DNA of 27,427 bases from a virus. The stretch lies in IMG/VR virus record IMGVR_UViG_3300025000_000359, positions 1 through 27,427 of that record; one strand, written 5' to 3'. The position numbers and the translations under genes were made by a program. The notes under the pieces were generated by a model. It saw only the letters and a program-made list of their open reading frames with translations. It made no database searches and had not been told where the DNA came from. Numbering within the stretch: the stretch's first letter is position 1; every line of letters starts with the position of its first letter. Positions 2,464-11,893 of the stretch are shown here, piece by piece.

Positions 2464-2828
2464 CAGACCAGCTCCAGGAGCAGCTCGCCGGAAAACCGCT
2501 GGTGGCTGGTTTCCGGGAAGTTGAAGGGGCTGGTCAGCATCCGCACCGTCATGGCCTGCCCATCCTCGTCATAGTAGGTGAAGGGGTTGAGCGCCCCGCA
2601 AGCGATGGTGTCAAACCAGTTACAGAGGGTGTCATAGTCGGTCTGCGGGAGGTTTTTGAATGACAGGACGCGGGTTTTGATATCGACGCCCAGATCCTCG
2701 ACCTGCAACGATCCGCCGGCGGTGCGGTCGGTTATCTGTAATTTTTCGTGGGGTTTCTCCACTGGGAAGCGGATGCTGCGCGAGAACTGCAGGACATTGG
2801 CCCCTAATTCGAATCTTGGCTTTGCCAT
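2463..2828 (-). CDS. Minor tail / distal tail-type protein
   Basis: This is a 121-aa protein starting MAKPRFELG. It lies between the tape measure gene and the large hub gene, overlapping both by one base (TGATG at each junction), so it is translationally coupled. It is rich in beta-strand-like segments (LQVEDLGVDIKTRVLSF, TYYDEDGQAMTVRML) with no signal peptide or membrane segment. In siphophages a small distal tail or tail-completion protein commonly follows the tape measure and caps the tail tube before the hub. That context supports the call. I do not see a motif that fixes the family, so the specific function is inference. Confidence 0.65.
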   Translation of the reverse strand: MAKPRFELGANVLQFSRSIRFPVEKPHEKLQITDRTAGGSLQVEDLGVDIKTRVLSFKNLPQTDYDTLCNWFDTIACGALNPFTYYDEDGQAMTVRMLTSPFNFPETSHQRFSGELLLELV

Positions 2829-4723
2829 CAGCTCCGTGCCTCCCGCCGCTTGGTTTCATTGGCGATCGCCACCGCGTCCGACCGGCTCATTTGTTGGTTG
2901 AAGTTGATGATAGTGGTTCCAGCCGCGTTTTTGCCGTAATAAGCCGATTCGGCCGCCGCGACCTGGCTTGCCGACATGTTGGGATCGGTGTTCTGATAGC
3001 CGCCTGATGCGAGTGTTGATACTGCCGGGACGGATGAGGTGGCGGCGGACACCTCGGTGTTCAGCCGCTGTATATCTTGGATCAAGCTATTGACCCCCGT
3101 GACCACCGCGCTGCCATCTAGGCGGGCGGCCAGGACTATCTCCTTGCCGTTCAATTCGTCGGCCTTCATTCCCAATCTCTCCAGGGCTTTGGCTCCGTCG
3201 GTTTCTGCCTCGTTAAACTGCTCCGTGATGGTGCCGGTCATGTCCTTGATCGATTGCACATTCTGACTTGCCGCCAGTTCGCCTGCTTCAAAGGCCTTGT
3301 CGGCGAGCTTGCCCAGCTGGTCATAGAGCCATTGCTCAACCGAATACACATCGGCGCCGGCTTTTTTCCATCGTGCAGCCTTTCGCACCAATTCAGTCGC
3401 TTCAGAGGAGAAATACTTTTCAGCGCCAAGGCCGGCCTCTTCGTACATTTCCTTCTCGGCGTCGGCTTGTTTTTCGGCTTCCGACTTGTGCTTGTCGAGA
3501 ATTTTCTGCCGCTCTTTCTCCTGGTACTTGAGGGCATTGGTTGTCCGATTAATCTCGTTTTGAAGACCTTTCTGCCCCTTGGCGCCTTCCTGAGCCAGCG
3601 CGGCCTGGCTCTTTGCAACAGCCTCAGTGGATCCGAGCATAATCTGGTAGGACTGGTTAGCCTTCATAGCCAACTCATCGGCTGCGCCGAAGGCGGCTTC
3701 GGCATTCATCTTCCACTCAGCCGCTGCATTGTTGGTAATATGGAGCTTGTCCGTCAGGCCGGTTACCCCTTCAATGATTTTGAAAATGCCTCCGGAGACT
3801 GCCAAGGATGCGGCGGCGACCGCCTGGAAGCCTCCTCTGAAAAAATAGAAGACGCTTTCGCCGGCGCCGAGAATCGCCCCAGATACGGCTCGTATCTCAT
3901 CTTTCCAATCAACCATCCGGTCGGTCGCCCAGTTCATGAAATCGGCAAAGACCGGGGCAAGTTCGGCGGCGATGGAATCCTTCAGGCCGCCGAAGGCGCT
4001 GGTGGCTTCCCTGGTCGCCGCGCCGGCTTCCCTCAATTTTTTGCTGTCGACCTCGCTCAGGGCAATGCCCAGCTCCTTGGCCCGGGCGGCCTGCTCTTTC
4101 AGCGCCTGGCCGTTTTTCTCGAGGAGCGGAATCAGCAGGGTAGCGTCGTCGGCTATCGATTCCAGATAGAAGACCTGCTCGGCGGCGCTGACATTGGCGT
4201 CATCCATGGCCTTTTTCACCGCCACCAGCACGTCCGGGCCAGAGAGCTTCTGCAGCTGTTCGACGGTCAAGCCGACCTTGGGCGCGACGTTTTCCATGAA
4301 GTCCAGGAACTCGCCGCCGCCGGTGGCGATGAAATCGCCGAGCTTGTCCTGGACGTCCTTGCTGATATCGGCAAACTTATCGAGGGGTATCCCGGCGGAC
4401 TCCGCGGCATAGGCGTATTCCTTGAACTCGCCGCTGCCCATTTTCGCCAGCCGGGCCAGGTTTTCCAGCTCTTTTGCTTCTTTGGCGGAGGTGATCACCA
4501 GGGCGGAGACGGCGGCAAAAGCAGCTGTCGCCGCAGCGGTAACCATGCCCCAGACGCCGACCACCTTCGACCAGGAGCCGCCGATCTTATCAGCCGCCCC
4601 GGACCCGGAGGACTCGACCTTGCGGAATTCTTCCTGCGATTTGCCGGAGAACTCCTTAACCCGCACCGACCCCTTGTCGTCGACGTACAGTTCGATAGCT
4701 ACTTTGGCGTTCTGTTGCGGCAT
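2828..4723 (-). CDS. Tape measure protein
   Basis: The 631-aa product is chosen from the ATG at 4723 (MPQQNAKVAIELYVDDKG). The open frame extends upstream to 4885, but that part lies inside the chaperone gene. The start comes 8 bases after the end of the frameshifted chaperone frame and lacks a good ribosome site, which suggests coupling. The N-terminus is followed by a hydrophobic stretch near residues 55-80 (VVGVWGMVTAAATAAFAAVSALVI), a long Ala/Lys/Glu-rich helical region and a second hydrophobic part near residues 280-310. A coiled-coil segment (INRTTNALKYQEKERQKIL) comes later. This is the usual build of tape measures, which fill the tail tube and set its length. With the usual ~1.5 angstrom per residue rule, 631 residues would imply a tail near 95 nm. 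That estimate is inference. Confidence 0.88.
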   Translation of the reverse strand: MPQQNAKVAIELYVDDKGSVRVKEFSGKSQEEFRKVESSGSGAADKIGGSWSKVVGVWGMVTAAATAAFAAVSALVITSAKEAKELENLARLAKMGSGEFKEYAYAAESAGIPLDKFADISKDVQDKLGDFIATGGGEFLDFMENVAPKVGLTVEQLQKLSGPDVLVAVKKAMDDANVSAAEQVFYLESIADDATLLIPLLEKNGQALKEQAARAKELGIALSEVDSKKLREAGAATREATSAFGGLKDSIAAELAPVFADFMNWATDRMVDWKDEIRAVSGAILGAGESVFYFFRGGFQAVAAASLAVSGGIFKIIEGVTGLTDKLHITNNAAAEWKMNAEAAFGAADELAMKANQSYQIMLGSTEAVAKSQAALAQEGAKGQKGLQNEINRTTNALKYQEKERQKILDKHKSEAEKQADAEKEMYEEAGLGAEKYFSSEATELVRKAARWKKAGADVYSVEQWLYDQLGKLADKAFEAGELAASQNVQSIKDMTGTITEQFNEAETDGAKALERLGMKADELNGKEIVLAARLDGSAVVTGVNSLIQDIQRLNTEVSAATSSVPAVSTLASGGYQNTDPNMSASQVAAAESAYYGKNAAGTTIINFNQQMSRSDAVAIANETKRREARS

Positions 4724-4728
4724 GGTCG

Positions 4729-5492
4729 TTAAATGGTCGCGGTTCGTTGTTGATGATACTGTTTGATCGTTCGATGGATGCCGATCAGGCAGCGCCTGGC
4801 CAGGCGGCGATCGGCCGGGGCGATCTCCAGATCGTCCATGGCCTGGGGCACTGCCGACATGACCAGGTCGCCCCAGGGGCAGCACCGGTCATGCAGGGCC
4901 AAGAGTCGCCGGGTCAGCATATCCCAGCCATCAACCGGACAGCCTGCACATTCCGGTTCAATTTCGTCGTCTTCAAGGTTTTGGCGGCACTGCCTGCACT
5001 CGACCTTCGGATAGTCGAGCTGGAACTGCACCGCCTCTAGGACTTTTTTTCGGCCTCGGCCTCCCGCTCCGCGTTGAAGCGCTCGATGTCGAAGGTGACC
5101 CGGTTCAGCCAGGCGGTAAAACCGGGCGCCCAGGTCATGAGGAGTCGCCGCGAGGTCTTGTCGAAGGCGATCTCCCCGGTGAAGCCTTTCAGCTTCTGAA
5201 AGTCCTCGATCAGGACCAGCCGCCGCAGATCCGCAACCGTCAGGCCGCGCCAGTCGACTATCACGTAGTCGCCAAACATCTCCTGATACTTGTCGCTGCT
5301 GAACACCGGCCGCTTCTTCATCAGGGCCAGATCCCACTGCAGCTCGGTTGCCGCCTCCACGAACTCCTGATGCTTGCCGCCGATCGGCCGCGCCAGGACC
5401 TCGAAAGTCGCGGAGCCGGGGTAGGCCACCCAGATCGGTGGCTGTTCGTCCCGGGTGTCGATGATGTCGGCGAGTTTCAATGTCTCATCCAT
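4729..5492 (-). CDS. Tail assembly chaperone, long -1 frameshift product (G-GT type)
   Basis: This is read as a ribosomal frameshift product: frame 0 from 5492 to the slippery site A AAA AAG at 5043-5049, then -1 frame to a TAA at 4729, about 254 aa in all. The short form stops at 5037. In lambda-like and many other siphophages the gene before the tape measure encodes two chaperones by -1 frameshifting, and both bind the tape measure during tail assembly. The extension of about 104 residues carries paired cysteines (VECRQCRQN and PECAGCPVDG) that look like a zinc-binding knuckle, followed by a helical tail with RRLLALHDRCC. No start codon of its own precedes the extension in a sensible place, so frameshifting explains the second frame best. 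Position, slippery sequence and open -1 frame are seen directly; the expression ratio is unknown. Confidence 0.82.
5037..5492 (-). CDS. Tail assembly chaperone, short (frame 0) form
   Basis: This is a 151-aa protein starting MDETLKLADIID, ending EAEKKS just after the slippery run. It lies between the tail tube gene and the tape measure gene, the fixed position of tail chaperones. The N-terminal half has the beta-rich pattern of TAC proteins (WVAYPGSATFEVLARPIGG) and the C-terminal half is helical. The ribosome site is weak. It should bind the tape measure protein in the cytoplasm during tail tube growth and not be part of the finished virion, as known for lambda gpG. Family assignment rests on position, size and the frameshift rather than on a diagnostic motif. 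Confidence 0.8.
   Translation of the reverse strand: MDETLKLADIIDTRDEQPPIWVAYPGSATFEVLARPIGGKHQEFVEAATELQWDLALMKKRPVFSSDKYQEMFGDYVIVDWRGLTVADLRRLVLIEDFQKLKGFTGEIAFDKTSRRLLMTWAPGFTAWLNRVTFDIERFNAEREAEAEKKS
5043..5049 (-). other. -1 ribosomal slippery heptamer A AAA AAG
   Basis: On the minus strand the frame-0 codons are GAA AAA AAG TCC TAG. The last A of GAA plus AAA AAG forms A AAA AAG, a classical bacterial -1 slippery heptamer, two codons before the frame-0 stop. After slipping, the -1 frame reads AAA AAA GTC CTA GAG and stays open to 4729. Confidence 0.85.
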
Positions 5493-5501
5493 GGAGGGTA
5501 C

Positions 5502-6545
5502 CTAAGCCAGAAGACCAGTGGTTTTGGTGTTGACCAGTTCGAACTGCAGCGGCTCGGTCAGGTCGGTCATGCCCGCCGGCGCCGTATCGGTACCGTAGCC
5601 GGACAGCTTCATCGAAAAGGGGATCTTGCCCGGGCCGGAAAACGCCGCCTCCGGGGTGTCCACCCGTAGATGCGGCAACCTGATGGTCAGCGAGTAGTAC
5701 TGGCCTGTCACGATCAGTTTGCCGGTGAAGGTGATGTCCATTTTTTTCGGCGTCCCCGCCGCCCAGGCATCGAAAAAAGCATCGTTGGCCGTGTTGTAGC
5801 GGGGGAACTTGAGGGTCAGCGACACGGCCGGGAAGCCGTTGTCGTCAGGCTCCGCCACACCGGCCTGGCCGGCGACCGCCTCGGTATCCATTGGCCTTCC
5901 GACGGTCAGCTCGAACCCGGACGGCTTGATCACGTCACCAGCCCCGAGAGCCGCGGCGGTCTGGTCGTTCATTCTGAAGACCGCGGCGCTCTGCATCATG
6001 ATCCGGTTGCCTTTTGCCACCGTGATGCCCGCCATGGTGGCAACGGTGTTCACCAGGCTGTCGCGGACTAACCGATCACCGGTCAGGTCGAACGATGCCT
6101 TGAGCGGCTTATTGGCCTCGCCGGAGAGTTTTAAGCCGTGGATCTTGGCGCTCGGATATTCCCAGGTCTTGTTCGCCAGCTTTTTTTCCGCCAAGGTGCC
6201 GAAGAGGCCATAAATCTGGCTGGCCATGTCGATGGTATGACGATAGGCGATGGTGGCGGAGATCTGGGCGACCGAGGCGCTGCCCATCAAGAGCGCCAGC
6301 GGCAGGCCGAGGCCATCATAGCGGGCATACATCTCGATGTTGCCGGCGCAGGTCATCTCGCCGGGATCGGTGTCGGTGACCCACGGCTGCCCGGCGGAAT
6401 CGTCGTCCTCCATTTTGATCGCCGGCTTGATGCCGTCGGAGAGGAGCAAGAGCCCGTTCCCCGCTCCGCATGCCGCCGCCGTTCCCCAGGTGGTTCCTTT
6501 CTTCAGGCCGCAGACGAATTCTCGGCCGGTTATTTCATTCGCCAT
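5502..6545 (-). CDS. Major tail tube protein
   Basis: This 347-aa protein (MANEITGREFVCGLKKGTTW) has an excellent ribosome site (AAGGAGG about 10 bases upstream). Its start matches the tail tube proteins of transposable siphophages, where an MANEITGRE-like opening is followed by a beta-sandwich fold. Segments such as GEMTCAGNIEMYARYDGLG and LTLKFPRYNTANDAFFDAW fit subunits that stack into the non-contractile tail tube. There is no sheath gene beside it, which separates this phage from contractile-tailed Mu. It lies between the head-tail connector genes and the chaperone pair, as expected. Highly expressed structural proteins often have such strong ribosome sites. The length, longer than minimal tube proteins, leaves room for an extra surface domain. 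Confidence 0.82.
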   Translation of the reverse strand: MANEITGREFVCGLKKGTTWGTAAACGAGNGLLLLSDGIKPAIKMEDDDSAGQPWVTDTDPGEMTCAGNIEMYARYDGLGLPLALLMGSASVAQISATIAYRHTIDMASQIYGLFGTLAEKKLANKTWEYPSAKIHGLKLSGEANKPLKASFDLTGDRLVRDSLVNTVATMAGITVAKGNRIMMQSAAVFRMNDQTAAALGAGDVIKPSGFELTVGRPMDTEAVAGQAGVAEPDDNGFPAVSLTLKFPRYNTANDAFFDAWAAGTPKKMDITFTGKLIVTGQYYSLTIRLPHLRVDTPEAAFSGPGKIPFSMKLSGYGTDTAPAGMTDLTEPLQFELVNTKTTGLLA

Positions 6546-10657: not shown

Positions 10658-11893
10658 CTATTCCTTCCGATACACAAGCTTCCCCGACCGTTGGTCATTG
10701 AGATATTTGCCCTGCTTGGTCGGCAACATCGTCCAGGCCTCCAGCCAGCCATCCTTGACGTCCGCGACAATCAGGATCGCTTTTTCTTTGCCCAGTCCCA
10801 GAACCTTGACGATCCTTTGCCGCAGGATCACCTTGCCCGTCCCTATATGCCTTTCGAAGCGTATCCAGACCTCTTGCGGATCGGTCAGCACTTCGGGGAT
10901 GAACGGTAAAAAGGGACTGCGACCGGGATCGATATGACTGCCGAGAACCTCCGCATTGACCAGCAGGTCATAACGGAACCCATCCGTTGCAAAGCTGAAG
11001 ATTTTCTCCTCTCCGCCGAGGATTTCGGTTAAGGCGGCCACCGTGGCTTCTTTGTTCGGCAAAGTCGGGCCAAGCTTCGCTTCAGGCTGGGCCGCCGGCA
11101 ATGTCGCGGGCAGGCCGCTGGTCATCCAGTCGCCGGGCGTGAGCTTCTCCCAGGCCTCTCCCTTCATCGCCTGATATTCCTTCATCGCATTCTCGGACAG
11201 CTTCCGCCCCCAGGCGGCCTGGCCGGGGCTATAATCCCAGCCGGGATCGATGCCGATCGGCACCTGGCTGACCTCGCCGGTCTTCTTGTTCACGTACTCG
11301 TAGGTGCCTTCATCCGGAGCCTCGGTCCGCAGCTTATCCTTGTTGCGCTGATATGCGGCGTTGCTCATGGTCGTTCTGCCGCACTTGCACCCCCAGCCGT
11401 TCGGCGGATCGTGTGTCTTCCACCAGGGATCGTCATGGCGGAGCACGATGCCGTACCACCGCATATGCTCTTTGCGCTGGTGGTCAGAACTGGACGGCAT
11501 GTATTTCCACCAGGGCCGCACCGCCAGCACGGCCGGTTCGGTGCTTGCGGCATAATGCCCGGCGCTGTAGGCGGTGGAGAGATTGGTGTCGAAGATCACC
11601 GCCGTCCGCCAGTCCCGGCCGCCGTTGTACTGCCAGCCGTGTTTCTCGATGGTCTTGTCGAAGTCTTTGCGGAAGTCGGCAAGGGTCGTGCCCTGGCTGA
11701 TCGCCTTGTCCACCGCGCCCCGCAGATCCGCGAGCAGCTGGCTCTTGGTCGCTCCGGCGACGACAAAGGCCCGGCTGTGCATCCCGCGTGAGAGATCGTC
11801 CCATTTCTTGGTCGGGAGACTGACTTTATCCCGGAAGAAACGGATCGCCTCATCGAAGGGCAGGTTGAGATATTCGGCGGATGGTGCGGTCAT
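10658..11893 (-). CDS. F: Mu F-like minor head protein fused to a PBECR2-type nuclease domain
   Basis: This is a 411-aa protein. Residues ~1-215 are the F / SPP1 gp7 head morphogenesis domain. It shows KPWWKY-like (here RPWWKYMPSSSDHQRKEH) and DDPWWKTHDPPNGWGCKCG motifs, with the CKC cluster at 169-171. This domain binds the portal and is packed inside the procapsid. A linker of about 60 residues (LPATLPAAQPEAK) leads to a second domain at ~285-411. That domain has H320, IDPGRSPFLPFIPE, DPQEVWIRFE and a LNDQRSGKLVYR ending, the pattern of PBECR2 (phage-associated Barnase-EndoU-colicin-RelE-like RNases). Such domains are often attached to F in tailed phages. The start ATG lacks a ribosome site and overlaps the stop of the 40-aa ORF, so it is coupled. 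RNase activity is inferred from family. Confidence 0.88.
   Translation of the reverse strand: MTAPSAEYLNLPFDEAIRFFRDKVSLPTKKWDDLSRGMHSRAFVVAGATKSQLLADLRGAVDKAISQGTTLADFRKDFDKTIEKHGWQYNGGRDWRTAVIFDTNLSTAYSAGHYAASTEPAVLAVRPWWKYMPSSSDHQRKEHMRWYGIVLRHDDPWWKTHDPPNGWGCKCGRTTMSNAAYQRNKDKLRTEAPDEGTYEYVNKKTGEVSQVPIGIDPGWDYSPGQAAWGRKLSENAMKEYQAMKGEAWEKLTPGDWMTSGLPATLPAAQPEAKLGPTLPNKEATVAALTEILGGEEKIFSFATDGFRYDLLVNAEVLGSHIDPGRSPFLPFIPEVLTDPQEVWIRFERHIGTGKVILRQRIVKVLGLGKEKAILIVADVKDGWLEAWTMLPTKQGKYLNDQRSGKLVYRKE

Follow-up and report, generated by a model that had tools for sequence, protein, structure and literature searches.

A very probable dnaX-like −1 ribosomal frameshift at the tail chaperone locus of a Mu-like phage

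Two overlapping reading frames lie between the tail tube gene and the tape measure gene of a virus, and they raise the question of how the second of them comes to be translated. The locus belongs to a stretch of 27,427 nucleotides (positions 1 to 27,427 of the IMG/VR record IMGVR_UViG_3300025000_000359), which we call the window. On its minus strand the order of genes is tail tube, chaperone, −1 extension and tape measure. The upstream neighbour (5502..6545, minus strand) is the tail tube protein (Pfam Phage_tube_2, E 4e-18), and the downstream one (2828..4723, minus strand) is the tape measure protein, with 631 residues (phrog_2854 tail length tape measure protein, E 7e-74). The phage is Mu-like: portal, F, protease, gpT, gp36, GemA and a Mu-type transposase are all found in the window. 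At the C terminus of the Mu F-like protein (10661-11893, minus strand) lies a PBECR2 nuclease-like domain. As to the host, a Desulfobulbales-type bacterium is probable, because the metagenome-assembled genomes where homologues of the locus are found bear the labels Desulfobulbaceae, Desulfocapsa, Desulfocapsaceae or unplaced Proteobacteria.

The first of the two frames, hereafter the zero frame, encodes a gpG-like tail assembly chaperone of 151 residues (5037..5492, minus strand), from an ATG start to a TAG stop. It is assigned to phrog_313, 'Tail assembly chaperone', with E 3e-6; the 12 family members that were scanned all match this group too. It is also about 30% identical, at a coverage of 90%, to tape measure chaperones of the T5 type. 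Its AlphaFold model is poor (pLDDT 44) and was left out of the fold search. A preliminary description of this DNA had recognized here the conserved chaperone trick of siphophages. Gene order and the phrog_313 assignment do fit the G/GT pair of lambda, but the phage is Mu-like, and 'siphophage' is a term that would be deduced from the tail genes.

Read directly on the minus strand, the 3′ end of the zero frame is GAG GCC GAA AAA AAG TCC TAG. The slippery heptamer A AAA AAG (5043..5049, minus strand), part of a run of seven A, thus sits in the zero-frame register, and the stop TAG (5037..5039, minus strand) comes a single codon, TCC, after it. Such a site in the zero frame, close to the stop at 5037, had been announced in the preliminary description, and it is indeed there, at 5049-5043; of the interval 5037-5049 then proposed, only 5043-5049 make up the slip site, while 5042-5037 hold the last zero-frame codon and the stop. 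An open −1 frame extends from about 5484 to a TAA at 4731-4729, and its first GTG is at 5337 on the minus strand. Counted from the slip, the extension (T-like domain; 4729..5049, minus strand) comprises 106 codons (5049-4732) followed by TAA, and its translation is KKVLEAVQFQLDYPKVECRQCRQNL...RTATI. The end of this frame at 4729 was rightly placed, but it had been put six bases ahead of the tape measure gene: five bases separate the stop from the ATG at 4723, six being the number of positions on going from 4729 to 4723. Taken alone, the heptamer is no rare word: AAAAAAG occurs 9 times in the window, where dinucleotide shuffles lead one to expect 2.9. Chance is exceeded by the register of the heptamer, by its position at the junction of two domains and by its conservation in 23 of 23 sequences.

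The layout very probably corresponds to a programmed −1 ribosomal frameshift, built like the signal of Escherichia coli dnaX. We infer the action of the stimulators, the efficiency of the process, its protein products and their G/GT roles as follows. While the ribosome translates the 151-residue chaperone, its 16S rRNA would pair, through the anti-Shine-Dalgarno end, with GGGAGG, located 10 nt before the slip site, and the leading edge of the ribosome would meet a stable hairpin 7 nt past that site. Some ribosomes, holding tRNA-Lys on both codons of A AAA AAG, would slip to AAA AAA and continue in the −1 frame, adding about 104 residues before a stop that immediately precedes the tape measure gene; for the others, termination would come one codon past the heptamer. 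If lambda is taken as the model, the short, G-like form would be the one that binds the tape measure protein, and the long, GT-like form the one that recruits tail tube subunits. The peptide that spans the junction of the predicted fusion would be EAEKKVLEAVQF, also given as ...EAEKKVLEAVQFQLDYPK.

Searches of viral contigs and genomes retrieved 22 further distinct sequences, making 23 with the window; several of these searches used the zero-frame protein as query, so that the −1 domain was not presupposed. An in-register heptamer is present at the domain junction in all 23 (AAAAAAG in 20, AAAAAAA in 2, AAAAAAC in 1), and so is a −1 frame that remains open for 105-131 codons, although these counts are not independent events, the 23 sequences being related to one another. 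Homologues devoid of both the slippery site and the open −1 frame had been named beforehand as the case that would speak against a frameshift; the opposite was found. In 22 of the 23, the −1 frame scores as the same domain in a profile search. The most distant member, L030, has A AAA AAC and keeps the CxxC start of the domain in its −1 frame, with a score under the profile threshold.

Short runs of A are prone to sequencing errors, and one might therefore ask whether, rather than a programmed shift, the two frames reflect misassembly or the decay of the gene. The same site is found in a second contig (L002), the same frame break recurs in 23 distinct homologues, and this number is what leads us to exclude an assembly error; decay of the gene would not account for the protein-level constraint that bears on both parts. 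Among the homologues we found no relative with a single fused open frame, and even in L036, L038 and L040 the conserved domain is still in the −1 frame. An artefact or a pseudogene is accordingly hardly conceivable here.

This constraint appears in the variability of the three codon positions across 12 sequences. Before the heptamer it is the third position of the zero frame that varies most (0.22/0.17/0.39), and after the heptamer it is that of the −1 frame (0.26/0.15/0.47): the extension is conserved as a protein, in the shifted frame. The zero-frame stop, by contrast with the slip site, drifts among homologues; it may be TAA, TAG or TGA, and it may lie 0, 1, 2, 4, 13 or 92 codons further on. 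With the slip site fixed while the stop moves, it is the slip site, and not the stop, that is the conserved element.

A −1 domain under selection could also be made as a separate protein, by termination followed by reinitiation: the SD-like site would hold the ribosome, which would then restart in the −1 frame at a TAATG. Seven homologues have this TAATG right after the heptamer, which places an ATG of the −1 frame one codon past the beginning of the −1 part, and coupled restart is a possible function of SD sequences close to the ends of genes (PMC5009743). However, the window has no ATG there, its first start being a GTG four codons on, and 10 of the 23 homologues contain no ATG, GTG or TTG in the −1 frame, be it upstream or among the first 26 codons, yet conserve the same residues. 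Furthermore GGGAGG stands 19 nt from the TAATG start in sequences that have one, too far away for a good SD, and exactly 10 nt from the heptamer, the invariant register of which would be left without explanation. We hold this mode of expression for highly improbable.

The SD-like element, a candidate stimulator that the preliminary description had missed, is GGGAGG at 5060..5065 (minus strand), 10 nt upstream of the heptamer; the motif with this 10-nt gap is present in 17 of the 23 homologues. Its predicted duplex with the anti-SD has an energy of -10.3 kcal/mol, and the CGG GAG codons at the site are invariant in 12 of 12 sequences. Synonymous freedom elsewhere in the gene gives the measure of this constancy. 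In the zero-frame protein, 45 columns hold an invariant residue with a degenerate codon, and the codon itself is invariant in only six of them. Five of these six coincide with the two signals: three of them, one Arg CGG and two Glu GAG, stand in or just after the SD-like site, and two, Glu GAA and the first Lys AAA, at the slip site. Finding five of six invariant codons within the last seven such columns would happen by chance about once in 10,000, an approximate figure since the sequences are related.

The second candidate, and a probable stimulator, is a stem-loop of 53 nt downstream of the slip site (4983..5035, minus strand), after a 7-nt spacer. In the window it has an MFE of -28.9 kcal/mol (z -4.0), and it is more stable than 1000 of 1000 synonymous-codon shuffles. 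The preliminary description had thought of a downstream pseudoknot; what folding of this region predicts is a long hairpin, and it gave nested structures only. Hairpins are predicted downstream in the homologues too, with pairing partners that vary by subclade, so that it is the hairpin that is kept rather than specific base pairs. RNAalifold counted no compensatory double changes in the close set, where sequences are too alike, and for this reason the synonymous-codon shuffle replaced it as the test of the hairpin: compared with the mean of such shuffles the downstream region is more stable in 12 of 12 sequences, and it beats at least 95% of them in 10 of the 12.

Homopolymeric A may also deceive RNA polymerase, which would add an A at the run, normal translation of the resulting mRNA then yielding the fusion. 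Nine A slip efficiently in bacteria (PMC5009743), and the required length is elsewhere given as An with n>7 (PMC3711429). The run is A7 in the window, and only A6 in L034, where it amounts to exactly A AAA AAG, as well as in L030; six homologues reach A9 (L036, L038, L040, L042, L049 and L028). In L036, L038 and L040 the nine A come without a nearby zero-frame stop, as would suit slippage of the polymerase, and the zero frame remains open for 92 more codons, so that translation without a shift would end in a long, unrelated tail. As the explanation of the window site transcriptional slippage is very improbable: its run is A7, and the maintained codon register, the spacing of the SD-like site and the downstream hairpin suit the action of a ribosome, not that of RNA polymerase. 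It is conceivable, if rather doubtful, that access to the −1 frame changed within the family, most members using the dnaX-like ribosomal cassette with A6-A8, and the A9 subclade (L036, L038 and L040 for example) obtaining the same fusion partly or wholly through slippage of the polymerase.

What the ribosomal frameshift would append to the chaperone is a domain with 19 invariant columns in the alignment of 12 sequences, four of them cysteines. Comparison of this domain with Pfam, PHROGs and 50,697 phage records gave no usable match, and a fold search of the PDB with its model found nothing. The AF2 model has a mean pLDDT of 80, and its best viral fold match is a tape measure chaperone derived by frameshift, from Serratia phage Scapp (E 1.6, prob 0.91), a protein that is annotated as a frameshift product. 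This model-based resemblance is fitting, if weak; lacking a catalogue match of its own, the domain owes its proposed GT role to its position together with this weak fold match. Four invariant cysteines evoke a zinc ribbon, which we do not claim: the model is of low confidence in that region, and several homologues have insertions between Cys34 and Cys37. Glycine-rich in-frame insertions of varied lengths (GQGWPNIEGAMDGTGVTDGQDTGATGD and similar) occur in L004/L014, L006, L019 and L020, precisely between the third and the fourth conserved cysteine.

A −1 frameshift in the tail chaperone gene is a described rule for long-tailed phages (PMC5009743), and lambda G/GT is a case in point (Xu, Hendrix and Duda 2004, cited in PMC5009743 and PMC3483164). 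The lambda system shares with the window a gene placed between tail tube and tape measure, a −1 shift near its 3′ end and a C-terminal extension that reaches just short of the tape measure gene. The window differs by its A AAA AAG, the SD-like element 10 nt upstream and the long downstream hairpin, by a zero-frame protein that belongs to phrog_313 and by an extension without catalogued relatives. The parallel in signal layout is E. coli dnaX, with an SD 10 nt upstream of A AAA AAG and a hairpin 6 nt downstream (PMC11162774), against about 10 nt and about 6-7 nt when both systems are considered together (PMC11162774, PMC3711429). The gene is a different one, however, and the dnaX shift makes a shorter product, whereas here it would make a longer one.

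Tail chaperone sites with A AAA AAG have already been published, for AH2, VT1-Sakai, psiM2, PVL, PV83, ul36 and Borreliapro in the part of PMC3483164 that bears on them, and for Paenibacillus phages (PMC6003738). Of those named, VT1-Sakai and PVL are phages that carry toxins. Burkholderia phage AH2 (gp55/gp56) has the same heptamer as the window, but its zero frame runs well past it before reaching a stop; AH2 is absent among the matches listed in a sequence search with the window proteins. In the AH2 sequence (L052) we noticed a GGAGG 7 nt upstream of the published heptamer, which goes unmentioned in that part of PMC3483164. A literature search of limited scope found no internal SD stimulators in tail chaperones; since AH2 also has an SD-like site, we do not claim that the one described here is unique. 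The T5/Sugarland-type pair (T5p139/T5p138; L021, L022) has a zero-frame protein about 30% identical to ours and the same place in the tail cluster. In contrast, the open frame of its second chaperone is +1 (or −2) and shares 26-38 nt with the end of the first (L021:2474-3308 for T5; L022:2498-3320), and no frameshift signal was predicted for chaperones of this type (PMC6256483).

To say, with the preliminary description, that the chaperone frameshift is here seen directly would be to overstate a case that the DNA nevertheless supports: what can be read from it is the register, the open frame, the conservation and the candidate stimulators. The device is familiar from many tailed phages; the locus is a well-supported case of it but not an unusual one, and specialists will find in it a good example, not a surprise. 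Its interest lies in a frameshift signal that is complete and comparatively supported, with SD-like site, slip site and hairpin, and with codons that stay fixed amid varying synonymous sites, a dnaX-type layout within a phage assembly gene. The full layout with its comparative support and the uncatalogued −1 domain are the contribution of this locus. Many members of this domain family lack a start codon of their own, and for that reason gene callers will often overlook them. Tail chaperone sites of an HK97-like family that were assayed gave 6-7% frameshifting (PMC3711429). As both candidate stimulators are present in the window, the share of fusion protein made by this phage is predicted to exceed that of lambda, about 1 in 30.
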